The position numbers were made by a program, and so were the translations under genes. A stretch of DNA of 11,067 nt from Chloroflexota bacterium. GTDB taxonomy: Bacteria > Chloroflexota > Limnocylindria > Limnocylindrales > CSP1-4. The notes under the pieces are model-generated. The model had not been told where the DNA came from, did not search any database, and saw only the letters and a list, made by a program, of their open reading frames with translations. Where the stretch lies: assembly GCA_021812735.1 (NCBI GenBank), contig JAKAMV010000238.1, positions 1 to 11,067 of the forward strand. The letters are read 5' to 3'. Shown here piece by piece: positions 677 to 10,504 of this stretch (its first letter is position 1; every line of letters begins with the position of its first letter).

Positions 677-1894
677 CTATCCGGGCAGCTGACCGAGCGT
701 CACGTGCACCGTGGCCTGGCTCCCGTCGGGATGCGTGATGCTCACCGAGACCGTCTGCCCGGGTTTCAGGTCCGCCAGCGCGGTCGCGAGGTCGGCGGCC
801 GACGTGATCGCTTGCCCGTCGATCGCGGTGATGATGTCGCCGGCCCGCAGTCCGGCCTTCGCAGCGGGGCCACCGGGCACCACGCTGTAGACGAGCGCAC
901 CGCCGCCCGCGAAGAGGTCGGCGCTCTGGATGCCCAGGTACGCCCGATGCGAGTTGATGACCTTGCCGTAGGCAATGATCTGGCTGGCCAGGTCCTTGGC
1001 CACATTGCTGGGGATCGCAAAGCCGATCCCGGCCGCGGCACCACCGATCTGGGGATCGGTCGCCGCCAAGGTCGGGATGCCGACCACGTCGCCGGCGAGG
1101 TCGACGAGGGCGCCGCCGCTGTTCCCCGGGTTGATCGCGGCGCTGGTCTGGATCACGTTGGGGAGCGCGGCGCCGTTCGGTTCGGCCACCGTGCGCCCGA
1201 GGGCGCTGACGATCCCCTCCGTGACGCTGCTCTGCAGGCCGAGCGGGTTGCCCATGGCCAGGACGATGTCGCCCACCTGCAACTTCGAGGAATCGCCGAA
1301 CGTCGCCGGCTGCAGGTTGCTCGCGCTGGCTCGGATCACGGCGATGTCGTTGGGCACGAACTCGCCGACGAGCTTGCCGCTGACGCTGCGCCCGTCGGCG
1401 AGCGTCACGGTGAACGAGGTGGCGCCGCCTGCCACGTGCGCGTTGGTCACGATGTCCCCGTGCGTGTCGAAGACGATCCCGGAGCCCAGGCCGACGTTCG
1501 TCTGGATCAGCACCACCGACGGGTTGACCTTCTGGATCACCGAGACGAATTGCGCCTGCAGGGCCTCCGCCCCGAACGCGGCGCCGGAGGGCGCGTTCCC
1601 CGTGCTCCCGGACGGAGATCCCGACCCATCGGCGGCGGGGGCTGCGCTTGCGCGGGCGGTCCCCGGGGAGAGCGAGGCCCCGGCGGATGGCGCGGCGGGG
1701 GCGGCGCTGGCGCCCGCGCCGGGGGGCGCCACGGGAGTGGCGGAGGGGGTCGTCGAGGTGCCGCAGGCGGCCACCAGGGTGCTGACCAGGGCCAACGTTG
1801 CGAGCCGGAGAGGCCGGCCGACAGCCCTGCGGTGTCCGGCCGGGCCGCGGCGCGCGGCCACCTCGCGGATGATGGATCTGGAAGCGGTCGTCAT
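677..1894 (-). CDS. HtrA/Deg-type serine protease with PDZ domain, lipoprotein-anchored
   Basis: A 405-residue trypsin-like protease of the HtrA (DegP/DegQ) family, which degrades or handles misfolded envelope proteins outside the cytoplasm. The N-terminus has basic residues, a hydrophobic stretch and a lipobox ending at Cys44 (LVAAC), so it is probably a lipoprotein tethered to the membrane. Residues ~47-105 form a low-complexity Ala/Pro/Ser/Gly linker. The protease domain spans ~110-310, with catalytic His153 (TNAHV), Asp183 (NDIAV) and Ser259 (GNSGG). A single PDZ domain spans ~318-402. This matches the one-PDZ HtrA plan; DegP has two. The start is ATG at 1894-1892 with no clear Shine-Dalgarno sequence. 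The N-region is long (~30 residues), so an internal start such as the GTG codon for Val12 is possible. The stop is TAG at 679-677. It is transcribed towards the tRNA gene. Confidence 0.94.
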   Translation of the reverse strand: MTTASRSIIREVAARRGPAGHRRAVGRPLRLATLALVSTLVAACGTSTTPSATPVAPPGAGASAAPAAPSAGASLSPGTARASAAPAADGSGSPSGSTGNAPSGAAFGAEALQAQFVSVIQKVNPSVVLIQTNVGLGSGIVFDTHGDIVTNAHVAGGATSFTVTLADGRSVSGKLVGEFVPNDIAVIRASASNLQPATFGDSSKLQVGDIVLAMGNPLGLQSSVTEGIVSALGRTVAEPNGAALPNVIQTSAAINPGNSGGALVDLAGDVVGIPTLAATDPQIGGAAAGIGFAIPSNVAKDLASQIIAYGKVINSHRAYLGIQSADLFAGGGALVYSVVPGGPAAKAGLRAGDIITAIDGQAITSAADLATALADLKPGQTVSVSITHPDGSQATVHVTLGQLPG

Positions 1895-2354: not shown

Positions 2355-3194
2355 TCAGCGCAGCAGGCGTCTCGCGATCCGCTGGGCGCGCGCGACCTCG
2401 TCGGCGTCGTAGGCGGGGATGCCCGCTGTCATCGCACCGTCGAGGGCGACCGTGGCCCCGCTCACGAACTGCGCGTCGTCCGAAGCGAGGAACGCCGCCA
2501 GCGCGGCGACATCCTCAGGCCAGCCGTACCGGCCGAGCGGTGGCAGCGGGGCAATCTCCGGCACGTCGCCTGCGTCGTGTCCCGAGATGCGGTCGGGAAA
2601 GTCGCTCATGCCCGGCTCGACGTAGGTCGGGCAGATGCAGTTGGCCCGGATCCCGTCCGGGGCGCCGTCGAGTGCCAGCAGCTTCGTGAGCATCACGACC
2701 GCCGCCTTCGAGACCGAATACGCGCCGATCAGCCGCTCGCCGTTGACGGCCGCGTCGGAGCCGATCGTGACGATGGCGCCGCCTCCAGCGGCCGCCATGC
2801 GGGGCATCAGCAACTGGGCGGCGAGGAGCGTCCCGGTGACGTTCGTGCCCATCACCCACTCCCAGTCCGCGAGGTCGGTCCGTGATACGAGCTGCACGAC
2901 CCCGACGCCGGCCGCGCAGGCAAGGATCGTCGGCGTCCCGTGTTCGTGCTCGGCATCGTCGAACGCATGGCGGAGCGCCTCGCGATCGCGGACGTCCGCC
3001 ACCGCGAAGCGGACACGGGTCCCGGGCACGGCTTCCTCCAGCGCACGCCGCGCCCGCTCACCCTTGCCCGCGCTGCGCCCGATGATCGTCACCGCCGCCC
3101 CCTCATCGAGGAAGCGCCGGGCGATCGCGAAGCCGATCCCGGAGTTGCCGCCGGTGACCACGGCAGCCCGACCCGCCAGTCGTCGCATGTCCAT
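2355..3194 (-). CDS. SDR-family NAD(P)-dependent oxidoreductase
   Basis: A 279-residue classical short-chain dehydrogenase/reductase, a Rossmann-fold enzyme oxidising or reducing an alcohol/carbonyl in the cytoplasm. The cofactor motif TGGNSGIG is at residues 14-21. Arg40 at the end of the second strand hints at NADPH preference. The structural NAG motif is altered to AAG (94-96). Asn118, Ser146 and Tyr159-x3-Lys163 form the catalytic tetrad. The C-terminal block with SGATVALDGAM is typical of FabG-like SDRs. The substrate is unknown. I chose ATG 3194-3192 because the fold begins about ten residues later; the frame is open further upstream to another ATG at 3230, but that extension is not SDR-like. 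There is no Shine-Dalgarno sequence, and a TATCCT box ends 6 nt before this ATG, so a leaderless mRNA is likely. Confidence 0.92.
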   Translation of the reverse strand: MDMRRLAGRAAVVTGGNSGIGFAIARRFLDEGAAVTIIGRSAGKGERARRALEEAVPGTRVRFAVADVRDREALRHAFDDAEHEHGTPTILACAAGVGVVQLVSRTDLADWEWVMGTNVTGTLLAAQLLMPRMAAAGGGAIVTIGSDAAVNGERLIGAYSVSKAAVVMLTKLLALDGAPDGIRANCICPTYVEPGMSDFPDRISGHDAGDVPEIAPLPPLGRYGWPEDVAALAAFLASDDAQFVSGATVALDGAMTAGIPAYDADEVARAQRIARRLLR

Positions 3195-3200
3195 GCCCGG

Positions 3201-3206
3201 AGGATA
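3201..3206 (-). promoter_or_regulatory. Putative -10 box for leaderless SDR transcript
   Basis: On the minus strand TATCCT is followed by six bases and then the SDR ATG, which places the A of ATG at or next to the expected +1. This fits leaderless transcription. The -35 region is weak (TGTCGC at 17-bp spacing). Confidence 0.45.
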
Positions 3207-3212
3207 GCGTGC

Positions 3213-3218
3213 GATAAT
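3213..3218 (+). promoter_or_regulatory. Putative -10 box for the 122-aa protein gene
   Basis: GATAAT, one base from consensus, lies 27 bp upstream of the ATG at 3246. It leaves room for a short leader with the strong ribosome-binding site at 3233-3243. It lies only a few bases from the minus-strand -10 of the SDR gene, making a compact divergent promoter pair. Confidence 0.45.
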
Positions 3219-3245
3219 GCCGCGCGACACGCGGAGAGGAGGACC

Positions 3246-3819: not shown

Positions 3820-4854
3820 TCAGGCCCGGCCCTCGCCGGCGCGGAGCAGCGCGATCGCGTTCTCCAGCCGCAGCTTGGCGATCGTCAGGTACTTGGCGAG
3901 GTTCGCGCGGTCGACCTCGCTCATCCCGTCGAGCGCCTGCGGAGCGCGCAGCACCGCGACGAGATCCTCCAGCGCTTGGCTCAGGTGGGTCTTCGACGCG
4001 ACCAGGGCGTCGTCGCCGGCCGGGGTGGGCCGTGGGGCGGGTTCGACCTCGGGCTCGGACGCCGGCGTCTCCGCCGTCGCCGCTGCAGCGGCGACGCCCG
4101 CGGCGGTCCGGATACGGCGCCGACGCCGGGGCGGGTCGTCCTCGTCGGCGACGGGACGGCCCTCGATGCGCTGGCGGAGGCGTTGGAGCGTCAGTTCCCC
4201 GCGCGCGACCTGTTCGGCAAGCCGCTTGCGTCGTCGCGGATCCTGCACTTTGAGGAGCTCGTAGGCGTGTGAGACGGTGTCTTTGCGCAAAGACACGAGC
4301 TCGCGGATCTCGGACGGGGCGTTGGCGAGCCGCAGCCGGTTCTCCACGTAGCCCTTGTCCTTGCCCAGCTTCTGGGCCAGCTTGCGGACGCTGTAGCCGT
4401 AGTCGTGCGTCATGCGCTGGTACATGGCCGCCTCATCGAGCGGCGAGAGGTCCTCCCGCTGGAGGTTCTCGATGATGGCGATCTCCAGCGCGGTTTCGTC
4501 GTCGATCTCTTCGACGAGCGCAGGGATGGTCGCCAGCTCGGCAAGCTGCGCGGCGCGCCAGCGCCGTTCGCCGGCCACCAACTGGTAGCGCCCGGCCGGC
4601 AACGGCCGGAGCAGGATCGGCTGCAGTACGCCGTGCTCCCGCACGGATGCCGCGAGCTCGTTGAGGGCGTCCTGGTCGAGCGCGAGGCGCGGTTGCTCGG
4701 GGTTCGGGTCGATGCGTCCGAGCGGCACCTGTCGGACGGCCGTGCTGCGGGTCTTCTCGTCGGGCGAGAGGAGGCTGAGGATGGCAGGGGAGAGGTCCTC
4801 GCGCTCTTCGGACAGGCGGCGCGCGGCGGCACTCCGGAAGTCGGGCCTAGCCAA
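3820..4854 (-). CDS. parB: ParB chromosome-partitioning protein (parS-binding CTPase)
   Basis: A 344-residue ParB/Spo0J-type protein, which loads on parS centromere sites as a CTP-dependent sliding clamp and works with ParA (and usually SMC) in origin segregation. Visible parts are a basic, disordered N-terminus (1-~35); the CTP-binding domain with [10 protein letters not shown] (75-84), GERRWRA (95-101) and ENLQRED (129-135); the helix-turn-helix DNA-binding region (~154-178, [20 protein letters not shown]); a variable Arg-rich/Ala-Pro linker (~231-275); and a C-terminal dimerisation domain (~280-340). The start is TTG at 4854-4852, supported by GGGAGGT 8 nt upstream and an 8-bp overlap with the end of parA, which implies translational coupling. 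Residues 187-193 (VSLRKDT) are encoded by a 20-bp perfect palindrome (4277-4296), a candidate parS site. Confidence 0.96.
4279..4294. promoter_or_regulatory. Candidate parS-like 16-bp palindrome, copy 1 (inside parB)
   Basis: GTCTTTGCGCAAAGAC, a perfect palindrome; here symmetry extends to 20 bp (4277-4296). It is identical to three other copies in the window. It lies within parB just after the helix-turn-helix coding region. A parS inside the parB gene is known in B. subtilis. The assignment as parS is inference; the repeat itself is directly visible. Confidence 0.65.
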
Positions 4855-5617
4855 GATCGATTACCTCCCGTGCCAGCTCGCGGAACGTGCGAGCAGCGTC
4901 GGATGCGCCGGCGTATGCCGTGACCGGACGACCGGTCAGTGGCGCCTCGCCCAGCTTCACCGTGTTCTTGACGATGCTGTGAAAGACGTGGTGATCGCCC
5001 AGCTCGCGCAGCTCGTCGAGCATCTCGCGCCCGAGCAGCGTCCGGCCGTCGTAGAAGGTCGGCAGCAGTCCCAGGATGCGCAGGTCGGGGTTCAGCCGCT
5101 TGGCGCGGATCTGGTTGATCACCTTGACGAGCGCGCTGAGCCCTTTGAGGGCGTAGTACTGCGTCTGCACTGGGATGATCACGTTGTCTGCCGCCACCAG
5201 GCCGTTGATGGTGAGCAACCCGAGGGTCGGCGGGCAGTCGATCAGGACGTAGTCGTAGCGATCGTCCACCCAGCCAGAGGTCGCCTCGTGCAGCGCCTGT
5301 TCGCGGCCGATCGCGGAGAAGAGTTCAACCTCGGTCGAGGCGAGCTCGAGGGTCGCGGGCGCGACGTCGATCCCGCTCGTCTGCGTCGGGATCACGACCT
5401 CTTCGAGCCGGGCCCGCTCGTCCGCCAGCACATCAGCCATCGACCGCTCGACTGTACCGATGTTGATCCCGAGACCGACGGTCAGGTTGGCCTGCGGGTC
5501 CATGTCGATGCACAGCACGCGGTACCCTTGCTCGGCCAGCGCGCCGGCAAGGTTGATGGCCGTCGTCGTCTTGCCGACGCCGCCTTTCTGGTTCGCGATC
5601 GCGATGACGTTCGCCAC
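4847..5617 (-). CDS. parA: ParA/Soj chromosome-partitioning ATPase
   Basis: A 256-residue ParA-family Walker ATPase, the usual length for chromosomal Soj/ParA without an N-terminal DNA-binding domain. ATP-dependent dimers bind nucleoid DNA, and ParB stimulates hydrolysis to move origins apart; in several bacteria Soj also controls DnaA. The deviant Walker A motif KGGVGKTT is at residues 11-18 with signature Lys11. DMDPQANLT (38-46) and the Walker B segment [11 protein letters not shown] (123-133) are intact. The start is GTG at 5617-5615, with a purine-rich GAGAGGAAG about 10 nt upstream. The TAG stop (4849-4847) overlaps the TTG start of parB, so the two form an operon. The absence of an HTH domain argues against a type Ia plasmid ParA. 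Confidence 0.96.
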
Positions 5618-5683
5618 GGGCTCGCTTCCTCTCTACGCCGGTTTGATCAGATCCGTATCAGCGCCGGGCGCCGGGCTCGCGCC

Positions 5684-5712
5684 AGTCTAGCGCCAGCAAC
5701 CGGCCTGCCCAA
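5684..5712 (-). promoter_or_regulatory. Putative parAB promoter
   Basis: On the minus strand TTGGGC (5712-5707) and TAGACT (5689-5684) are separated by exactly 17 bp, giving an expected leader of about 60 nt before the parA GTG. The nearest DnaA-box-like site begins 6 bp upstream of the -35 hexamer. Confidence 0.5.
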
Positions 5713-5717
5713 CGCAG

Positions 5718-5760
5718 TTGTCCACACAGATGCCGAGTTGTTCACCGAATCGGTGGATAA
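5718..5760. promoter_or_regulatory. Cluster of three DnaA-box-like sites
   Basis: TTGTCCACA (5718-5726, plus strand) equals the DnaA-box form preferred in high-GC actinobacteria and is one base from the E. coli TTATCCACA. TTGTTCACC (5738-5746, plus) and TTATCCACC (5760-5752, minus) are weaker matches. Three such sites in 43 bp of very GC-rich DNA, directly upstream of the parAB promoter, are unlikely to be chance. They may be part of oriC or a DnaA-controlled promoter. Confidence 0.6.
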
Positions 5761-6016
5761 GTCTGGCCGCTCCGGTCCGCGTCGCCATCCCCCGATCGTC
5801 CGGTACGGAGACCGGTCCGTCGCGCGGCGACACGCGCCACGCGCAGCGACCACGCGTGCTGCGCCTTGCCCTGGGTCGCCTGCGACCCGCGTACCGCGAT
5901 CGAGGCTTGTGGCCCAGCCCCCGGGGCGCGCGTCGCGTAGCCGTTCGCACGCGGGGCGCGCCGTCGCACGCGGCTCGCGCCGTCGCGGCCCCTGAGGCGG
6001 CGGGCGGGGCCACTGG

Positions 6017-6022
6017 TACGAT
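6017..6022 (+). promoter_or_regulatory. Putative -10 box of the carboxylase operon
   Basis: TACGAT fits the TAnnnT pattern and would start RNA near 6029-6030, so the palindrome at 6032-6047 would lie just downstream of +1. No good -35 hexamer is seen in the GC-rich DNA upstream. Confidence 0.3.
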
Positions 6023-6031
6023 AGCCGAACC

Positions 6032-6047
6032 GTCTTTGCGCAAAGAC
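6032..6047. promoter_or_regulatory. Candidate parS-like 16-bp palindrome, copy 2 (upstream of carboxylase operon)
   Basis: An exact copy of GTCTTTGCGCAAAGAC, the only one of the four outside coding sequence. It begins 32 bp before the carboxyltransferase GTG and ends 16 bp before it, upstream of the ribosome-binding site. Its position would also suit an operator for the operon. Confidence 0.65.
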
Positions 6048-6063
6048 AACGGAAGGGAGAGCC

Positions 6064-7617
6064 GTGGCGAGCAATGACGTTCGCGTCGCGCGCCTGCGGG
6101 CCATGCGGGAGCAGAGCCGCCTCGGTGGCGGATCCGAGCGGATCGAACGACAGCACCGGCAGGGCAAGCTGACGGCGCGTGAGCGGTTGGAGCTGCTGCT
6201 CGATCCGGGGTCCTTCGTCGAGTTCGATGCGTTCGTGCTGCACCGGACCGCAGAGTTTGGTCTCGACGAGCAGCGCATCCTTGGCGACGGCGTCGTCACC
6301 GGACACGGCACGATCGACGGCCGTCTGGTCTTCGTCTTCAGCCAGGACTTCACCGTGTTCGGCGGCTCCCTGTCGGAGGCACACGCGGAGAAGATCTGCA
6401 AAGTGATGGATCTCGCGATGCGGACGGGCGCACCGATCGTCGGCCTCAACGACTCGGGCGGCGCGCGCATCCAGGAGGGCGTGGCGTCGCTCGGGGGCTA
6501 TGCCGAGATTTTCCTGCGCAACACCCTCGCGTCGGGCGTCGTGCCGCAGATCTCGCTGATCATGGGTCCCTGCGCCGGCGGCGCCGTCTACTCGCCCGCC
6601 ATCACCGACGTCACGATCATGGTCGAGGGGACCAGCTACATGTTCGTCACCGGCCCCGAGGTCGTACGCGCGGTCACCCACGAGGAAGTGGACCGCGAGC
6701 GGCTGGGCGGCGCGGCCACACACACTCAGGTGAGCGGCGTGGCACATCTCGCTGCCCCGGACGAAGCGAGCGCGCTGGACCTGGCGCGGCGGCTGCTTGG
6801 GTTCCTGCCGCAGAACAACCTCGGCGACCCTCCGCTGCGCCCCACGTCCGATCCGGTCGAGCGGCGGGACGAGATCCTCGACCGCATCATTCCCGACGAA
6901 CCGACGCGGGCCTACGATATGAAGACCGTCATCCGCGCCATCGTCGACGACGGCGAGTTCCTCGAGCTACAGCCAGACTGGGCCGCCAACATCATCGTCG
7001 GATTCGCGCATCTCGGCGGGCGCAGTGTGGGCATCGTCGCACAACAGCCGATGGTGCTGGCGGGCGCACTCGACATCGACGCGTCGGACAAGGCGGCGCG
7101 TTTCGTGCGCTTCTGCGACGCGTTCAACGTCCCGCTGGTGACGCTGGTCGACGTGCCGGGGTTCCTGCCCGGCGTGGCGCAGGAACACGGCGGCATCATC
7201 CGGCACGGTGCAAAACTGTTGTACGCGTACTGCGAGGCCACCGTGCCGAAGCTGACGGTGATCACCCGCAAGGCGTACGGAGGCGCGTACGACGTGATGA
7301 GCAGCAAGCACATCCGGGGCGACGTCAACCTCGCCTGGCCCACGGCTGAGATCGCGGTGATGGGGATCGAGGGTGCGGTCAACATCATCTTTCGCGACCG
7401 CATCGCGCGGGCCGCGGACCCGGAGGCGGAACGTGCGATCCTGGTGCGAGAGTACGAGGAACGCTTCGCGCATCCGTACGTGGCGGCCGCGCGCGGTTAC
7501 GTCGACGACGTGATCGAACCATCGGAGACGCGGCCCCGGCTGATCCGTGCGCTCGAGATGCTGGCGAGCAAACGCGACCGGAACCCGTCGCGCAAGCACG
7601 GGAATATCCCGCTGTGA
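6064..7617 (+). CDS. pccB: Acyl-CoA (propionyl-CoA type) carboxylase, carboxyltransferase subunit
   Basis: A 517-residue biotin-dependent carboxyltransferase, the usual length for PccB/AccD5-type beta subunits. It moves CO2 from carboxybiotin to an acyl-CoA, most likely propionyl-CoA to (S)-methylmalonyl-CoA. Both crotonase-like halves are complete: the N-half (to ~270) has [12 protein letters not shown] (129-140) and the oxyanion-hole loop [12 protein letters not shown] (168-179), and the C-half has VPGFLPG and [15 protein letters not shown] (375-389). The C-terminus KHGNIPL is a family hallmark. Asp410 in GGAYDVM corresponds to the Asp that favours propionyl-CoA in studied PccB proteins, so I prefer propionyl over acetyl specificity. 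A sodium-pump methylmalonyl-CoA decarboxylase alpha subunit is similar in sequence but less likely beside a biotin carboxylase. GTG start at 6064 with AAGGGAG 5-7 nt upstream. It leads the operon and overlaps the next gene by 4 bp. Confidence 0.93.
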
Positions 7618-8909
7618 CCGTACCGCACGGCAGCGTCTTTGCGCAAAGACAGCAAGCCCCGCTCCCGTCCGTGACGCGGATCGCAGCGTTCGGAGAATCC
7701 GTCATCCGCGAGATGACGCGCCTGGCGCAGCGATACGACGCCGTGAACCTCGCGCAAGGCTTTCCCGATTTCCCGGCCCCGGCGCCTGTCAAGGCGGCCG
7801 CGGTCCGCGCCATCCGGGGCGACCTCAATCAGTACGCCGTCACCTGGGGAGCGCCCGAGCTGCGCGCGGCGATCGCTGCGGCGTACGGCCGGCGCGGGTG
7901 GGCGGGGATCGACCCCGAACACGATGTCACGGTGGTCTGTGGCGCGACCGAAGCGATCGCTGCGGCCTGCCTCGCGTTGCTGGAGGAAGGGAGCGAGGTG
8001 CTGGTCTGCGATCCGTTGCACGAGTCGTACGCGCCGGCGCTGCTGCTGGCTGGTGCGCGGGCGGTCCCAGTTCCCCTGCGCTGGCCCGACTGGACGTTCG
8101 ACGCCGATGCGCTCCGCGGCGCGGTCGGACCGCACACACGCGCACTGATCCTGACGAACCCGCACAACCCCACGGGGCGCGTCTTCCGTGACGACGAGTT
8201 GGCCGCCATCGCAGCGCTGTGCCGCGACCACGACCTCTTCGCGTTCACCGACGAGATCTACGAACACATCGTGTACGAGGGGCGCCACCGTTTTCTCGCG
8301 CAGTATCCCGGGATGGCCGAGCGCACCGTGACGGTCAGCGCCCTGTCGAAGACGTACGCGGTCACCGGCTGGCGCATCGGGTGGGCCATCGCCCCGGCCC
8401 CGTTCAGCGACGCGCTGCGCAAGGTCCACGATTTCCTGACAATCGCGGCACCCACGCCGTTCCAGGCGGCGGGCGTGGCTGCGCTCGGACTCGGCGACGC
8501 GTATCACGAGCGGCTTGCCCACGTCTATCGCAGGCGCCGCGATCTGCTGCTGCGCGCACTCGCCCCGGCAGGAATGGCCGGGGCTGCCCCGCAGGGTGCC
8601 TACTACGTGCTGGCGGACGTCAGCCCCCATCTTGCGGCGGGTGGCTTCGCCGACTCCGCGGAGTTCGCGAAGTGGCTGGTGGAGGAGGCAGGGGTGGCGG
8701 TCGTGCCCGGCACGGCGCTCTTCCTGACTCCGGGCGCGGGTCGCGCGCTGGTGCGACTGGCGTTCCCCAAGCGACGCGCCACGCTGGAGCTGGCGGGCGA
8801 GCGCCTGATCGCGGCGGCGCGGCGTCTCGGGGTGGCGCCGCGGCGCGTCTTTGCGCAAAGACAGCGCGCCGGGCGCGCCCAGCAAGGGCGCGAGGGGCGG
8901 CGGGCGTGA
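7614..8909 (+). CDS. PLP-dependent class I/II aminotransferase
   Basis: A 431-residue fold-type I aminotransferase resembling kynurenine/methionine aminotransferases (KAT/YbdL-like), which transfer an amino group from an amino acid to a 2-oxo acid. Visible residues are [10 protein letters not shown] (45-54), the NPHNPTG loop with Asn185 (182-188), Asp213 and Tyr216 in [13 protein letters not shown], the PLP Schiff-base Lys246 in [16 protein letters not shown], and the carboxylate-binding Arg381. The GTG start overlaps the upstream stop as GTGA (7614-7617). The first ~17 and last ~22 residues lie outside the conserved fold. Each tail contains VFAQRQ, encoded by a copy of the 16-bp palindrome. 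A later start, after the palindrome, is possible but has no better-supported codon. Its place inside a carboxylase operon suggests a role in amino-acid breakdown to the acyl-CoA substrate. The true amino-acid substrate is unknown. Confidence 0.92.
7635..7650. promoter_or_regulatory. Candidate parS-like 16-bp palindrome, copy 3 (5' end of aminotransferase gene)
   Basis: An exact copy of GTCTTTGCGCAAAGAC starting 18 bp after the carboxyltransferase stop. It covers codons 8-13 of the aminotransferase (VFAQRQ), before the conserved fold. It uses TTT and AGA; AGA is used in this gene only within the two palindrome copies. Confidence 0.65.
8847..8862. promoter_or_regulatory. Candidate parS-like 16-bp palindrome, copy 4 (3' end of aminotransferase gene)
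   Basis: An exact copy of GTCTTTGCGCAAAGAC covering codons 412-417 (again VFAQRQ) in the unconserved C-terminal tail, 44 bp before the stop codon begins. It is in the same reading frame as copy 3, 1212 bp away. Confidence 0.65.
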
Positions 8910-10504
8910 AGCCGCCGTTTCGTCGCGTGCTGGTGGCCAACCGCGGAGAGATCGCGGTGCGCGTCATCCGTGCTTGCCACGAGCTTGGTTGCGAAGCCGT
9001 TGGGGTGTATAGCGACGCCGACGTCCGGGCGCCCCATGTGCGCGCCGCCGACGTGGCGGTCCGGATCGGACCCCCGCCCGCAGCCGAGAGCTATCTGCGG
9101 ATCGACGCCATCCTGGCGGCCGCCCGCCAGACGGCCGCCGAAGCCATCCACCCCGGGTACGGCTTCCTCTCCGAGCGGGCGGCGTTCGCCCGCGCCTGCG
9201 CGGAAGCGGGGATCGCGTTCGTGGGCCCCTCCCCGGAAACGCTGGCGGGCCTGGGAGACAAGCTCGCGGCCCGGCGGGCGGCGCGGGCAGCCGGCGTGCC
9301 AGTCGTGCCGGGGACGCTGGAACCGGCACCGGTCGAGGACCTCGAGGCGGCCGCGTCGGTACTGCCCGAGGCCGATCGCGTCGGCTGGCCCTTGATGGTC
9401 AAGGCGTCTGCCGGCGGTGGGGGGCGCGGCATGCGGCGAGTCGACGAGGCAGGGGAGCTGCCGGCCGCCCTGCTCGCGGCGTCGCGCGAGGCGGCGGCCG
9501 CGTTCGGGGACGGATCGGTCTATCTGGAGCGCTACGTGCAGGGCGCGCGGCACGTGGAGGTGCAGCTGCTCGGAGACGCGGAGGGGGAGATCGTGGCGCT
9601 CGGCGAGCGCGACTGCTCGCTGCAGCGGCGGCACCAGAAGCTGGTCGAAGAGGCGCCCGCCCCGGGTTTGACCGCGCCGCGCCGGCGCGAGCTGCACCGC
9701 CTCGCCGTCTCCGTGGCCCGTGCGTTCGGGCTGCGCAACGCCGCCACGGCGGAGTTCCTGCTGGCGCCTGACGGCAGTTTCTGGTTCCTGGAGGTCAACA
9801 CGCGGCTGCAGGTCGAACACGGGGTGACCGAGCTGGTGAGTGGCCTCGACCTCGTCCACGAGCAGTTGCGCATCGCGGCGGGTGAGTCGCTCTCTCGGCG
9901 GGTCCGCGCGGCCGCGGCGCATGCCGCGCGTCCCGAACGGCATGCCATCGAGGTGCGGATCAGCGCCGAGGACCCCGGCCGCGAGTTCGCCCCGGTCTCG
10001 GGTCGGATCACGCGCTGGCGCGAACCGGGCGGACCCGGCGTGCGCGTGGATGCGGGGGTGGAGGAGGGGAGCGTCGTCGGCACCGACTACGACCCGCTGC
10101 TGGCGAAGCTGTTGGTGGTGGCCGAGGACCGGCCCGGGGCGCTCGCCCGGCTGCGGCGGGCGCTCGATGAGTTCGAAGTGGCCGGGCTCCAGACCACGCT
10201 GCCGTTCCACCGCTGGGTGGCCGCGGAGCCGGCGTTCGCGGCGGCCGTGCTCTCGACCTCGTTCGTGCCGGACCGCTGGCGTGCGGCGCAGCTCCGTGCC
10301 GCGGCGGCCGCACGGGCAGCGGCCATCGCGGCGACATGGACGGCGGCGACCGAGTTCGGGAGGCGGGGGGCCGAGGCCTGGTCCGGCCGGCCGCCCGACG
10401 ACGTCGGCCCGCGCCGCGATCCGGCCGCTGACGGGTCCGCCAGCTCCGACGAGCGATGGGTGCGCGTCGCCCGGCGCGAGGCCGTCGAGCGGTGGCCCGC
10501 GTGA
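8906..10504 (+). CDS. accC: Biotin carboxylase subunit of acyl-CoA carboxylase
   Basis: A 532-residue biotin carboxylase, which uses ATP and bicarbonate to carboxylate biotin on the carrier protein. The N-terminal domain begins RRVLVANRGEIAVRVIRACHELG. The ATP-grasp domain has Lys166 in MVKASAGGGGRGM (164-176) and GERDCSLQRRHQKLVEEAPA (233-252). The active site has Glu296, Asn298 and Arg300 in EVNTRLQVEH. The C-terminal lobe (RISAEDP, DPLLAKL, the GLQTTLPF block) is complete at about residue 455. The remaining ~75 residues are an Ala/Arg-rich, non-conserved extension, making it longer than a plain AccC (~450). Biotin is not attached here; the carrier is the next gene, unlike fused PccA/MccA alpha subunits. 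The usual EHPVTE reads EHGVTE (Gly306). GTG start overlaps the previous stop as GTGA (8906-8909). Confidence 0.95.
   Translation: MKPPFRRVLVANRGEIAVRVIRACHELGCEAVGVYSDADVRAPHVRAADVAVRIGPPPAAESYLRIDAILAAARQTAAEAIHPGYGFLSERAAFARACAEAGIAFVGPSPETLAGLGDKLAARRAARAAGVPVVPGTLEPAPVEDLEAAASVLPEADRVGWPLMVKASAGGGGRGMRRVDEAGELPAALLAASREAAAAFGDGSVYLERYVQGARHVEVQLLGDAEGEIVALGERDCSLQRRHQKLVEEAPAPGLTAPRRRELHRLAVSVARAFGLRNAATAEFLLAPDGSFWFLEVNTRLQVEHGVTELVSGLDLVHEQLRIAAGESLSRRVRAAAAHAARPERHAIEVRISAEDPGREFAPVSGRITRWREPGGPGVRVDAGVEEGSVVGTDYDPLLAKLLVVAEDRPGALARLRRALDEFEVAGLQTTLPFHRWVAAEPAFAAAVLSTSFVPDRWRAAQLRAAAAARAAAIAATWTAATEFGRRGAEAWSGRPPDDVGPRRDPAADGSASSDERWVRVARREAVERWPA

Follow-up and report, generated by a model that had tools for sequence, protein, structure and literature searches.

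A candidate parS-like palindrome clustered at a second parA-parB locus in genomes of a Chloroflexota class

The stretch of Chloroflexota DNA analysed here in full (the window; 11,067 nucleotides, contig JAKAMV010000238.1) carries a parA-parB gene pair, designated parA1 and parB1, and four exact copies of the palindrome GTCTTTGCGCAAAGAC (Table 1). The initial annotation of this DNA had held that the four copies exceed chance, that their flanks are unrelated, that canonical parS is missing and that the palindrome is tied to parAB, with one site inside parB; these observations were borne out by the analyses below. No further copies with three or fewer mismatches were found in the window, and in 200 dinucleotide-preserving shuffles the copy number averaged 0.01 and peaked at 1, with 0 of the 200 reaching four. 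Measured from the start of parB, the copies are centred on +567.5, -1185.5, -2788.5 and -4000.5, and their flanks have, by eye, only a few bases in common. The copies inside genes are spelled with codons that are rare across the seven open reading frames (ORFs) of the window (TCT, 4 of 129 serine codons; TTG, 17 of 265 leucine codons; AAA, 7 of 48 lysine codons; TTT, 8 of 69 phenylalanine codons; CAA, 10 of 73 glutamine codons; AGA, 2 of 249 arginine codons), and selection therefore seems likely to act on the DNA letters rather than on the protein. We consider it very probable that the palindrome is a parS-like site, here called parS1, of the adjacent ParB1.

The occurrence of the palindrome was followed through 177 genomes of the class (Chloroflexota, probably Candidatus Limnocylindria), whose families are labelled f1 to f5, through a set of 61 relatives, and through 13 genomes searched whole with up to two mismatches (nine from f1 and f4, four from f2, f3 and f5). 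With at most one mismatch, the site was matched in 117 of the 177 class genomes (99 of 107 in f1, 16 of 22 in f4, 0 of 19 in f2, 1 of 28 in f3 and 1 of 1 in f5), and the motif written backwards gave 0 in each over the same genomes. An exact copy is present in 22 of the 61 relatives. The nearest genome, G001, with which 80% of sampled words are shared, has exactly three exact copies (G001:C4:37793-42376), which lie beside its parAB and span at most 4.6 kb at parAB1, and a fourth copy there has one mismatch; the counterpart of window copy 3 has one mismatch and that of copy 4 is exact (G001:C4:42361-42376). All 26 sites in the nine whole f1 and f4 genomes lie on the parB1 contig, within about 4.3 kb of parB1, at 2-4 copies per genome, and the four whole f2, f3 and f5 genomes hold two sites in total, neither at parB1. 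An exact-match scan of a broad collection of genome contigs returned at least 117 loci; among those listed, 42 hold a window-type parA or parB and 75 do not, and approximately 60 chance matches are expected collection-wide at equal base frequencies. Chance accounts for many of the collection matches outside parAB1 loci. Twenty-four of the 75 listed loci without window-type parA or parB are GC-rich (>62%), and some of these are Chloroflexi fragments, possibly part of the system.

We fetched 96 loci from relatives and found a parB match in 94, of which 91 are from the class (40 in f1, including two from one genome, G016; 15 in f4, 16 in f2, 19 in f3 and 1 in f5) and three from elsewhere in the phylum. 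Sites with up to three mismatches were present in 40 of 40 f1 and 15 of 15 f4 loci, with two or more in 38 and 13 of these, respectively (51 of 55 together), and in 0 of 16 f2, 1 of 19 f3, 0 of 1 f5 and 0 of 3 outgroup loci. Counted from -6.5 to +2 kb of the parB start, the 55 f1 and f4 loci hold 148 such sites, which fall into bands within parB at +540 to +590 (54 of 55 loci), upstream of parA1 at approximately -890 to -1300 and further upstream at approximately -2600 to -2900, with six sites beyond -4000. Positions 1, 2, 6, 11, 14, 15 and 16 of the site are invariant in all 148 and position 3 is kept in 147, and the most variable positions are 4, 5, 9 and 13. A blind palindrome search recovered the motif in 15 of the 15 f1 loci tried, with 0 in the control. 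Across the 806 kb that the f1 and f4 loci span, the reversed motif had 0 matches, and this control, together with the shuffles, rules out a chance origin of the sites at parB1. Genome G016 has two parAB1 loci (L285 and L286), both with sites, and G096, G051 and G141 also have two matches each; the doubled matches reflect either duplication or mixed bins.

Table 1 Features of the window (minus and plus signs give the strand)
Feature	Positions	Strand or location	Details
Palindrome copy 1 (parS1-like)	4279..4294	inside parB1	exact match; codons TCT/TTG/AAA rare
Palindrome copy 2	6032..6047	intergenic, upstream of parA1, 16 bp before carboxyltransferase ORF start	exact match
Palindrome copy 3	7635..7650	start of aminotransferase ORF	exact match
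Palindrome copy 4	8847..8862	near end of aminotransferase ORF	exact match
parB1, presumed palindrome binder	3820..4854	-	Pfam PF02195 (ParB_N) E 1.9e-35, PF17762 (HTH_ParB) E 8.3e-20
parA1, ParA-type ATPase	4847..5617	-	PF13614 AAA_31 E 3.3e-62; end overlaps parB1 start
Carboxyltransferase, acyl-CoA carboxylase type	6064..7617	+	PF01039 E 1.7e-201; neighbour outside the system
Class I/II aminotransferase, host ORF of two sites	7614..8909	+	PF00155 E 2.1e-60
Biotin carboxylase, neighbour	8897..10504	+	PF00289, PF02786, PF02785
Trypsin-like and PDZ (HtrA-like) protease	677..1894	-	Pfam
Short-chain dehydrogenase	2355..3230	-	Pfam

Most relatives carry a second ParB. When the window ParB was searched against the 61 relatives at E ≤1e-20, the matches fell into two score classes, ParB1 and a weaker ParB2 (E 5e-42 to 8e-31); ParB1-class matches occur in 53 of the 61, ParB2-class matches in 54, both in 48 and neither in 2. 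Each of the 20 ParB2 loci that we fetched has a parA relative (parA2) beside parB2, and these ParB2 proteins are 35-48% identical to the window ParB over the aligned part. Canonical parS, GTTNCACGTGNAAC, lies upstream of parA2 in 17 of the 20 loci; the ParB2 locus of G057 (L349) has TGTTTCCCGTGAAACA, one mismatch from the canonical 16-mer, and no parS with three or fewer mismatches to the canonical one was found at the ParB2 loci of G059 (L351, f3) and G061 (L353, f5). Canonical parS is present somewhere in the genome in 49 of the 61 relatives. The initial annotation had proposed that this lineage has a re-specified ParB-parS pair. The association of a new site with ParB1 is supported, as are changed contact residues, but replacement of the lineage's pair is not, as ParB2 with its own ParA persists in most relatives, usually with canonical parS and near dnaA; canonical sites elsewhere in the genome speak against re-specification of a sole ParB and leave the palindrome itself unaffected. 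Two ParABS systems of different specificity, apparently coexisting in one chromosome, are the best reading of these sequences.

ParB1 is present in 156 of the 177 class genomes and in 53 of the 53 good ones. In a phylum sample of 400 genomes, 58 matched the window ParB at E ≤1e-45, 55 of them from the class and three from outside it (8e-47 to 1e-45). As judged from its sequence, ParB1 keeps the ParB_N fold, the cytidine triphosphate (CTP)-binding motifs and the helix-turn-helix (HTH) domain, and is predicted to bind CTP; the residues GERRWRA and ENLQRED, which we take to be the CTP motifs, do not vary among 34 aligned close relatives, a set that includes the window. Its best sequence relatives in the PDB are Noc (E 2.9e-42) and ParB (E 4.3e-40). 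An AlphaFold model of ParB1 (mean predicted local distance difference test score 77, predicted template-modelling (TM) score 0.54) matches structures of Noc and of ParB bound to cytidine diphosphate, a CTP analogue or parS, with modest whole-chain TM-scores and with Noc as the best fold match. In a tree of 56 rows, midpoint-rooted for drawing only, the 29 ParB1 rows are split by a 100/100 branch from all others, which comprise 20 ParB2 proteins, four PDB proteins including Noc, and three ParBs from elsewhere in the phylum.

The DNA-contact positions compared here are those named in the accessible part of PMC7383237, numbered on Caulobacter ParB. All 29 ParB1 rows have V, I or L at 162, D at 172, K at 173, R at 179, S, T or A at 201 and Y at 204, whereas the 20 ParB2 rows have Q or H at 162, mostly A or S at 172, mostly R at 173, mostly T at 179, G at 201 (19 of 20) and R at 204 (20 of 20). 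ParB1 thus differs from canonical ParB at six of these contact positions in every row, a comparison that the initial annotation had put forward. Other contact positions are kept in ParB1 (171 and 178 in 29 of 29 rows, 170 in 28 of 29), and position 184 varies in both classes. Near its N terminus, canonical ParB has an LG[KR]GL-type motif that binds ParA, according to the accessible part of PMC12704722. The motif was found in 0 of 55 ParB1 rows versus 15 of 20 ParB2 rows, counts in which script-chosen starts may have clipped some N termini. In close ParB1 relatives it is replaced by a conserved N-terminal stretch that ends in SLL, and ParA1, whose gene adjoins parB1 in almost every f1, f4 and f3 locus and in some f2 loci, may use this stretch of ParB1.

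The initial annotation had also expected the sites to lie close to the replication origin, and this placement was not upheld. A single strong DnaA match was found per genome in nine genomes; seven of them have dnaA and parB2 on the same contig, 20-37 kb apart, and G038 and G057 have the two on separate contigs. The dnaA contig carried parB1 in 0 of the 9. Contig arithmetic, assuming one replicon, places parB1 at least 0.37 Mb from dnaA in G060 and at least 0.29 Mb in G058. In 3 of 11 genomes the parB1 contig also carries the single gene for ribosomal protein S10 (G171, 61 kb; G060, 69 kb; G145, 141 kb), which the remaining 8 have on another contig. Of the six genomes with a match to 16S ribosomal RNA (rRNA), G171 has the rRNA pieces on its parB1 contig and five have them on a different contig. 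On the basis of this S10 and 16S linkage, parB1 looks chromosomal. Approximately 420 kb sampled from the parB1 contig of G060 contains 10 transfer RNA (tRNA) genes. Among the best 5000 records, no plasmid record was more than 60% identical to ParB1 or covered 80% of it, and a Pfam scan of the seven window ORFs revealed no replication initiator.

In the f2 genomes, which are 0.8-1.2 Mb in size, 6 of 16 loci, all six from one genus, have a diverged site at -859 to -862 as the best match of a weight-matrix scan (a tied best in G052). These sites read GTCCGTGTACGCAGAC, GTCCGTGCGCGCAGAC or GTCTGCGCACACGGAC and score 8.5-12, versus at least 21 for true sites; the reversed matrix scored at most 3.2 in the six loci and 8.1 in the f2 locus of G039. 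The shared place upstream of parA1 suggests that this element is a drifted form of the same site, and the six loci are close kin rather than independent cases. Of the other ten f2 loci, that of G041 has no upstream sequence, that of G044 has parA1 yet no site, and eight have no parA relative, although those of G050 and G051 end too soon to judge. The other six of these eight (L328, L329, L330, L331, L333 and L334), each with 3 kb or more of upstream sequence, have parB1, no parA relative on the fetched stretch and no site at -859 to -862; it is possible that they encode an orphan, Noc-like ParB1 in small genomes.

De novo palindrome searches in f2, f3 and f5 gave nothing convincing. High-count GC-rich words in these searches were put down to composition, and GAACTTCGCGAAGTTC-like words, present in 17 of 19 f3 loci, were rejected as coding conservation because they occupy +835 to +862 of parB, where a locus has just one, and are frequently non-palindromic. 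Some f3 loci (for example, L400, L402 and L406) have an inverted repeat directly upstream of parA1, with a CTTCC-type centre and GC-rich arms, which could be either an operator or a diverged site. At approximately -880 to -895, where other families carry the upstream site, L402 (G146) and L403 (G145) have a perfect half-site, GTCTTTGC or GCAAAGAC, which may be a relic.

Several observations weigh against assigning the palindrome to a ParABS system built on ParB1. The main gap is the missing site in f3 and f5, which keep parA1 and the ParB1 contact residues but have no site at parB1 (19 f3 loci and one f5 locus, the sole f3 match being weak and 7.7 kb from parB1), and for which the de novo palindrome searches yielded no substitute motif. 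The f2 locus of G044 likewise has parA1 and upstream sequence but no site. Sites away from parB1 occur in G061 (f5, one mismatch) and G057 (f3, two mismatches), and among the places listed some sites are on contigs that do not carry parB1 (for example, G035:C52, G070:C216, G071:C63, G074:C80, G075:C117 and G078:C46), a number of which are short; contig breaks are the likely cause of the latter. Finally, ParB1 does not have LG[KR]GL, and its coupling to ParA1 is hence a prediction.

The main rival explanation is that ParB1 acts like Noc, gathering at its sites to control division or to anchor DNA without segregating it, which we regard as a minority possibility. In its favour are the absence of the LG[KR]GL motif, the top PDB sequence and fold matches to Noc, with ParB close behind, and the six f2 loci in which parB1 has no parA relative. 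The parA1 gene that adjoins parB1 elsewhere argues for a different role, as does the position of ParB1 outside the Noc group in the tree, in which the Noc branch is long. The sites are confined to parAB1 in the nine whole f1 and f4 genomes, whereas Noc sites are scattered around the chromosome in the accessible part of PMC4331003. The residues at 173, 179, 184 and 201 are Q, K, K and R in Noc, as given in the accessible part of PMC7383237, versus K, R, a variable residue and S, T or A in ParB1.

It is unlikely that parAB1 and the palindromes are carried by a chromid or other secondary chromosome, with each of two replicons served by its own system. Multi-replicon bacteria do have a distinct parS for each replicon, and parB1 shares no contig with dnaA in 9 of 9 genomes, with S10 in 8 of 11 and with 16S rRNA in 5 of 6, in assemblies that are fragmented. 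Against such a replicon stand the three genomes in which the sole S10 gene is on the parB1 contig, the 16S rRNA on it in G171, the tRNA genes in G060, the single strong DnaA match per genome and the lack of a window-encoded initiator or a close plasmid ParB1 in the searches described above. Very unlikely is a role as operator, bound by an unrelated transcription regulator acting on both parAB1 and the carboxylase genes. One copy is intergenic, upstream of both parA1 and the carboxyltransferase ORF, and the upstream site is retained in f4 and in six f2 loci, as an operator might be; however, three of the four window copies are inside ORFs, and the site keeps a fixed place within parB in 54 of 55 f1 and f4 loci, which does not resemble an operator. 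Moreover, none of the sites in the nine whole f1 and f4 genomes lies away from parB1, the Pfam scan found no regulator among the seven window ORFs, and ParB1, kept at the locus, is itself a DNA-binding-type protein. A genome-wide iterated palindrome of the HIP1 type, an alternative raised in the initial annotation, would also be a perfect palindrome in several exact copies, but it can practically be dismissed because the nine whole genomes have 2-4 clustered copies each, all at parB1, and not hundreds, and G001 has three exact ones.

We return to the preferred interpretation, that parS1 is the site of ParB1, and compare it with known systems. To our knowledge, chromosomal parS is very constant across bacteria; Livny et al. 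reportedly surveyed parS in 2007. With canonical chromosomal ParABS (ParB/Spo0J with TGTTTCACGTGAAACA-type parS), the locus shares the parA-parB pair, the ParB_N and HTH_ParB domains, the CTP-motif residues and several copies of a 16-bp palindrome, both inside parB and close to it. It differs in each palindrome half-site, where by eye 5 of 8 positions are unlike canonical parS, in the altered contact residues and absent LG[KR]GL motif of ParB1, in the placement of parB1 off the dnaA contig and in its coexistence with a canonical system. Secondary-chromosome ParABS systems of Vibrio and Burkholderia likewise have a distinct parS per system, on separate replicons; parB1 differs in its linkage to the only S10 gene (3 of 11 genomes; other contigs in 8 of 11). 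Of the marks of type I ParABS, in which an HTH-ParB is a CTPase, parA1 beside parB1 and clustered inverted-repeat sites are found in f1 and f4, and binding by ParB1 is predicted.

The closest documented parallel, as far as the accessible part of PMC13245405 goes, is the Streptomyces plasmid SCP1, in which two type I ParABS systems with distinct parS share one replicon. Each SCP1 ParB binds three identical inverted repeats (13 bp and 19 bp) around its own operon and not chromosomal parS, as determined by chromatin immunoprecipitation sequencing and biolayer interferometry (PMC13245405). SCP1 is a plasmid with binding assays, whereas the system described here is apparently chromosomal and class-wide, as read from sequence alone. 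Noc and the Noc binding site (NBS), as described in the accessible part of PMC7383237, offer a further likeness in that a ParB paralogue with a re-specified palindromic site stands beside canonical ParB; NBS differs from parS at only two positions (PMC7383237), and ParB1 differs from Noc in its neighbouring ParA, its other contact residues and the location of the sites at its own locus. Searches of open-licence PMC papers turned up no case of one chromosome carrying a second ParABS with a parS of its own, and the motif letters, two-ParABS wording and Limnocylindria together with chromosome segregation also had no match there.

A working model can be proposed, in which ParB1, as a CTP-bound clamp, would be loaded at the palindromes around parAB1 and slide along neighbouring DNA, and ParA1 would move or position the ParB1-bound DNA. 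We infer each of these steps, namely ParB1 binding to the site, CTP-dependent loading and spreading and ParA1-driven movement, and likewise a lack of cross-reaction between the two systems. Our first choice for the job of this system would be to position or segregate a second locus on the chromosome. That the whole class maintains, on one chromosome, two ParABS systems insulated from each other, a canonical one at oriC and a distant second one near the ribosomal protein cluster, with its own centromere and a different ParA-docking N terminus, is a broader claim that we judge evenly balanced. If true, ParB1 and its site would be a naturally occurring orthogonal ParB-parS pair, unusual in its recognition residues (D172, K173, R179 and Y204), a test case for re-specification of ParB specificity and ParA docking and possibly a further orthogonal pair for DNA labelling. 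For a single bacterial genome to hold two distinct centromere-like systems would be unusual. Such a chromosome would have two separately handled centromere-like regions, which would raise the question of why it keeps a second centromere away from oriC.

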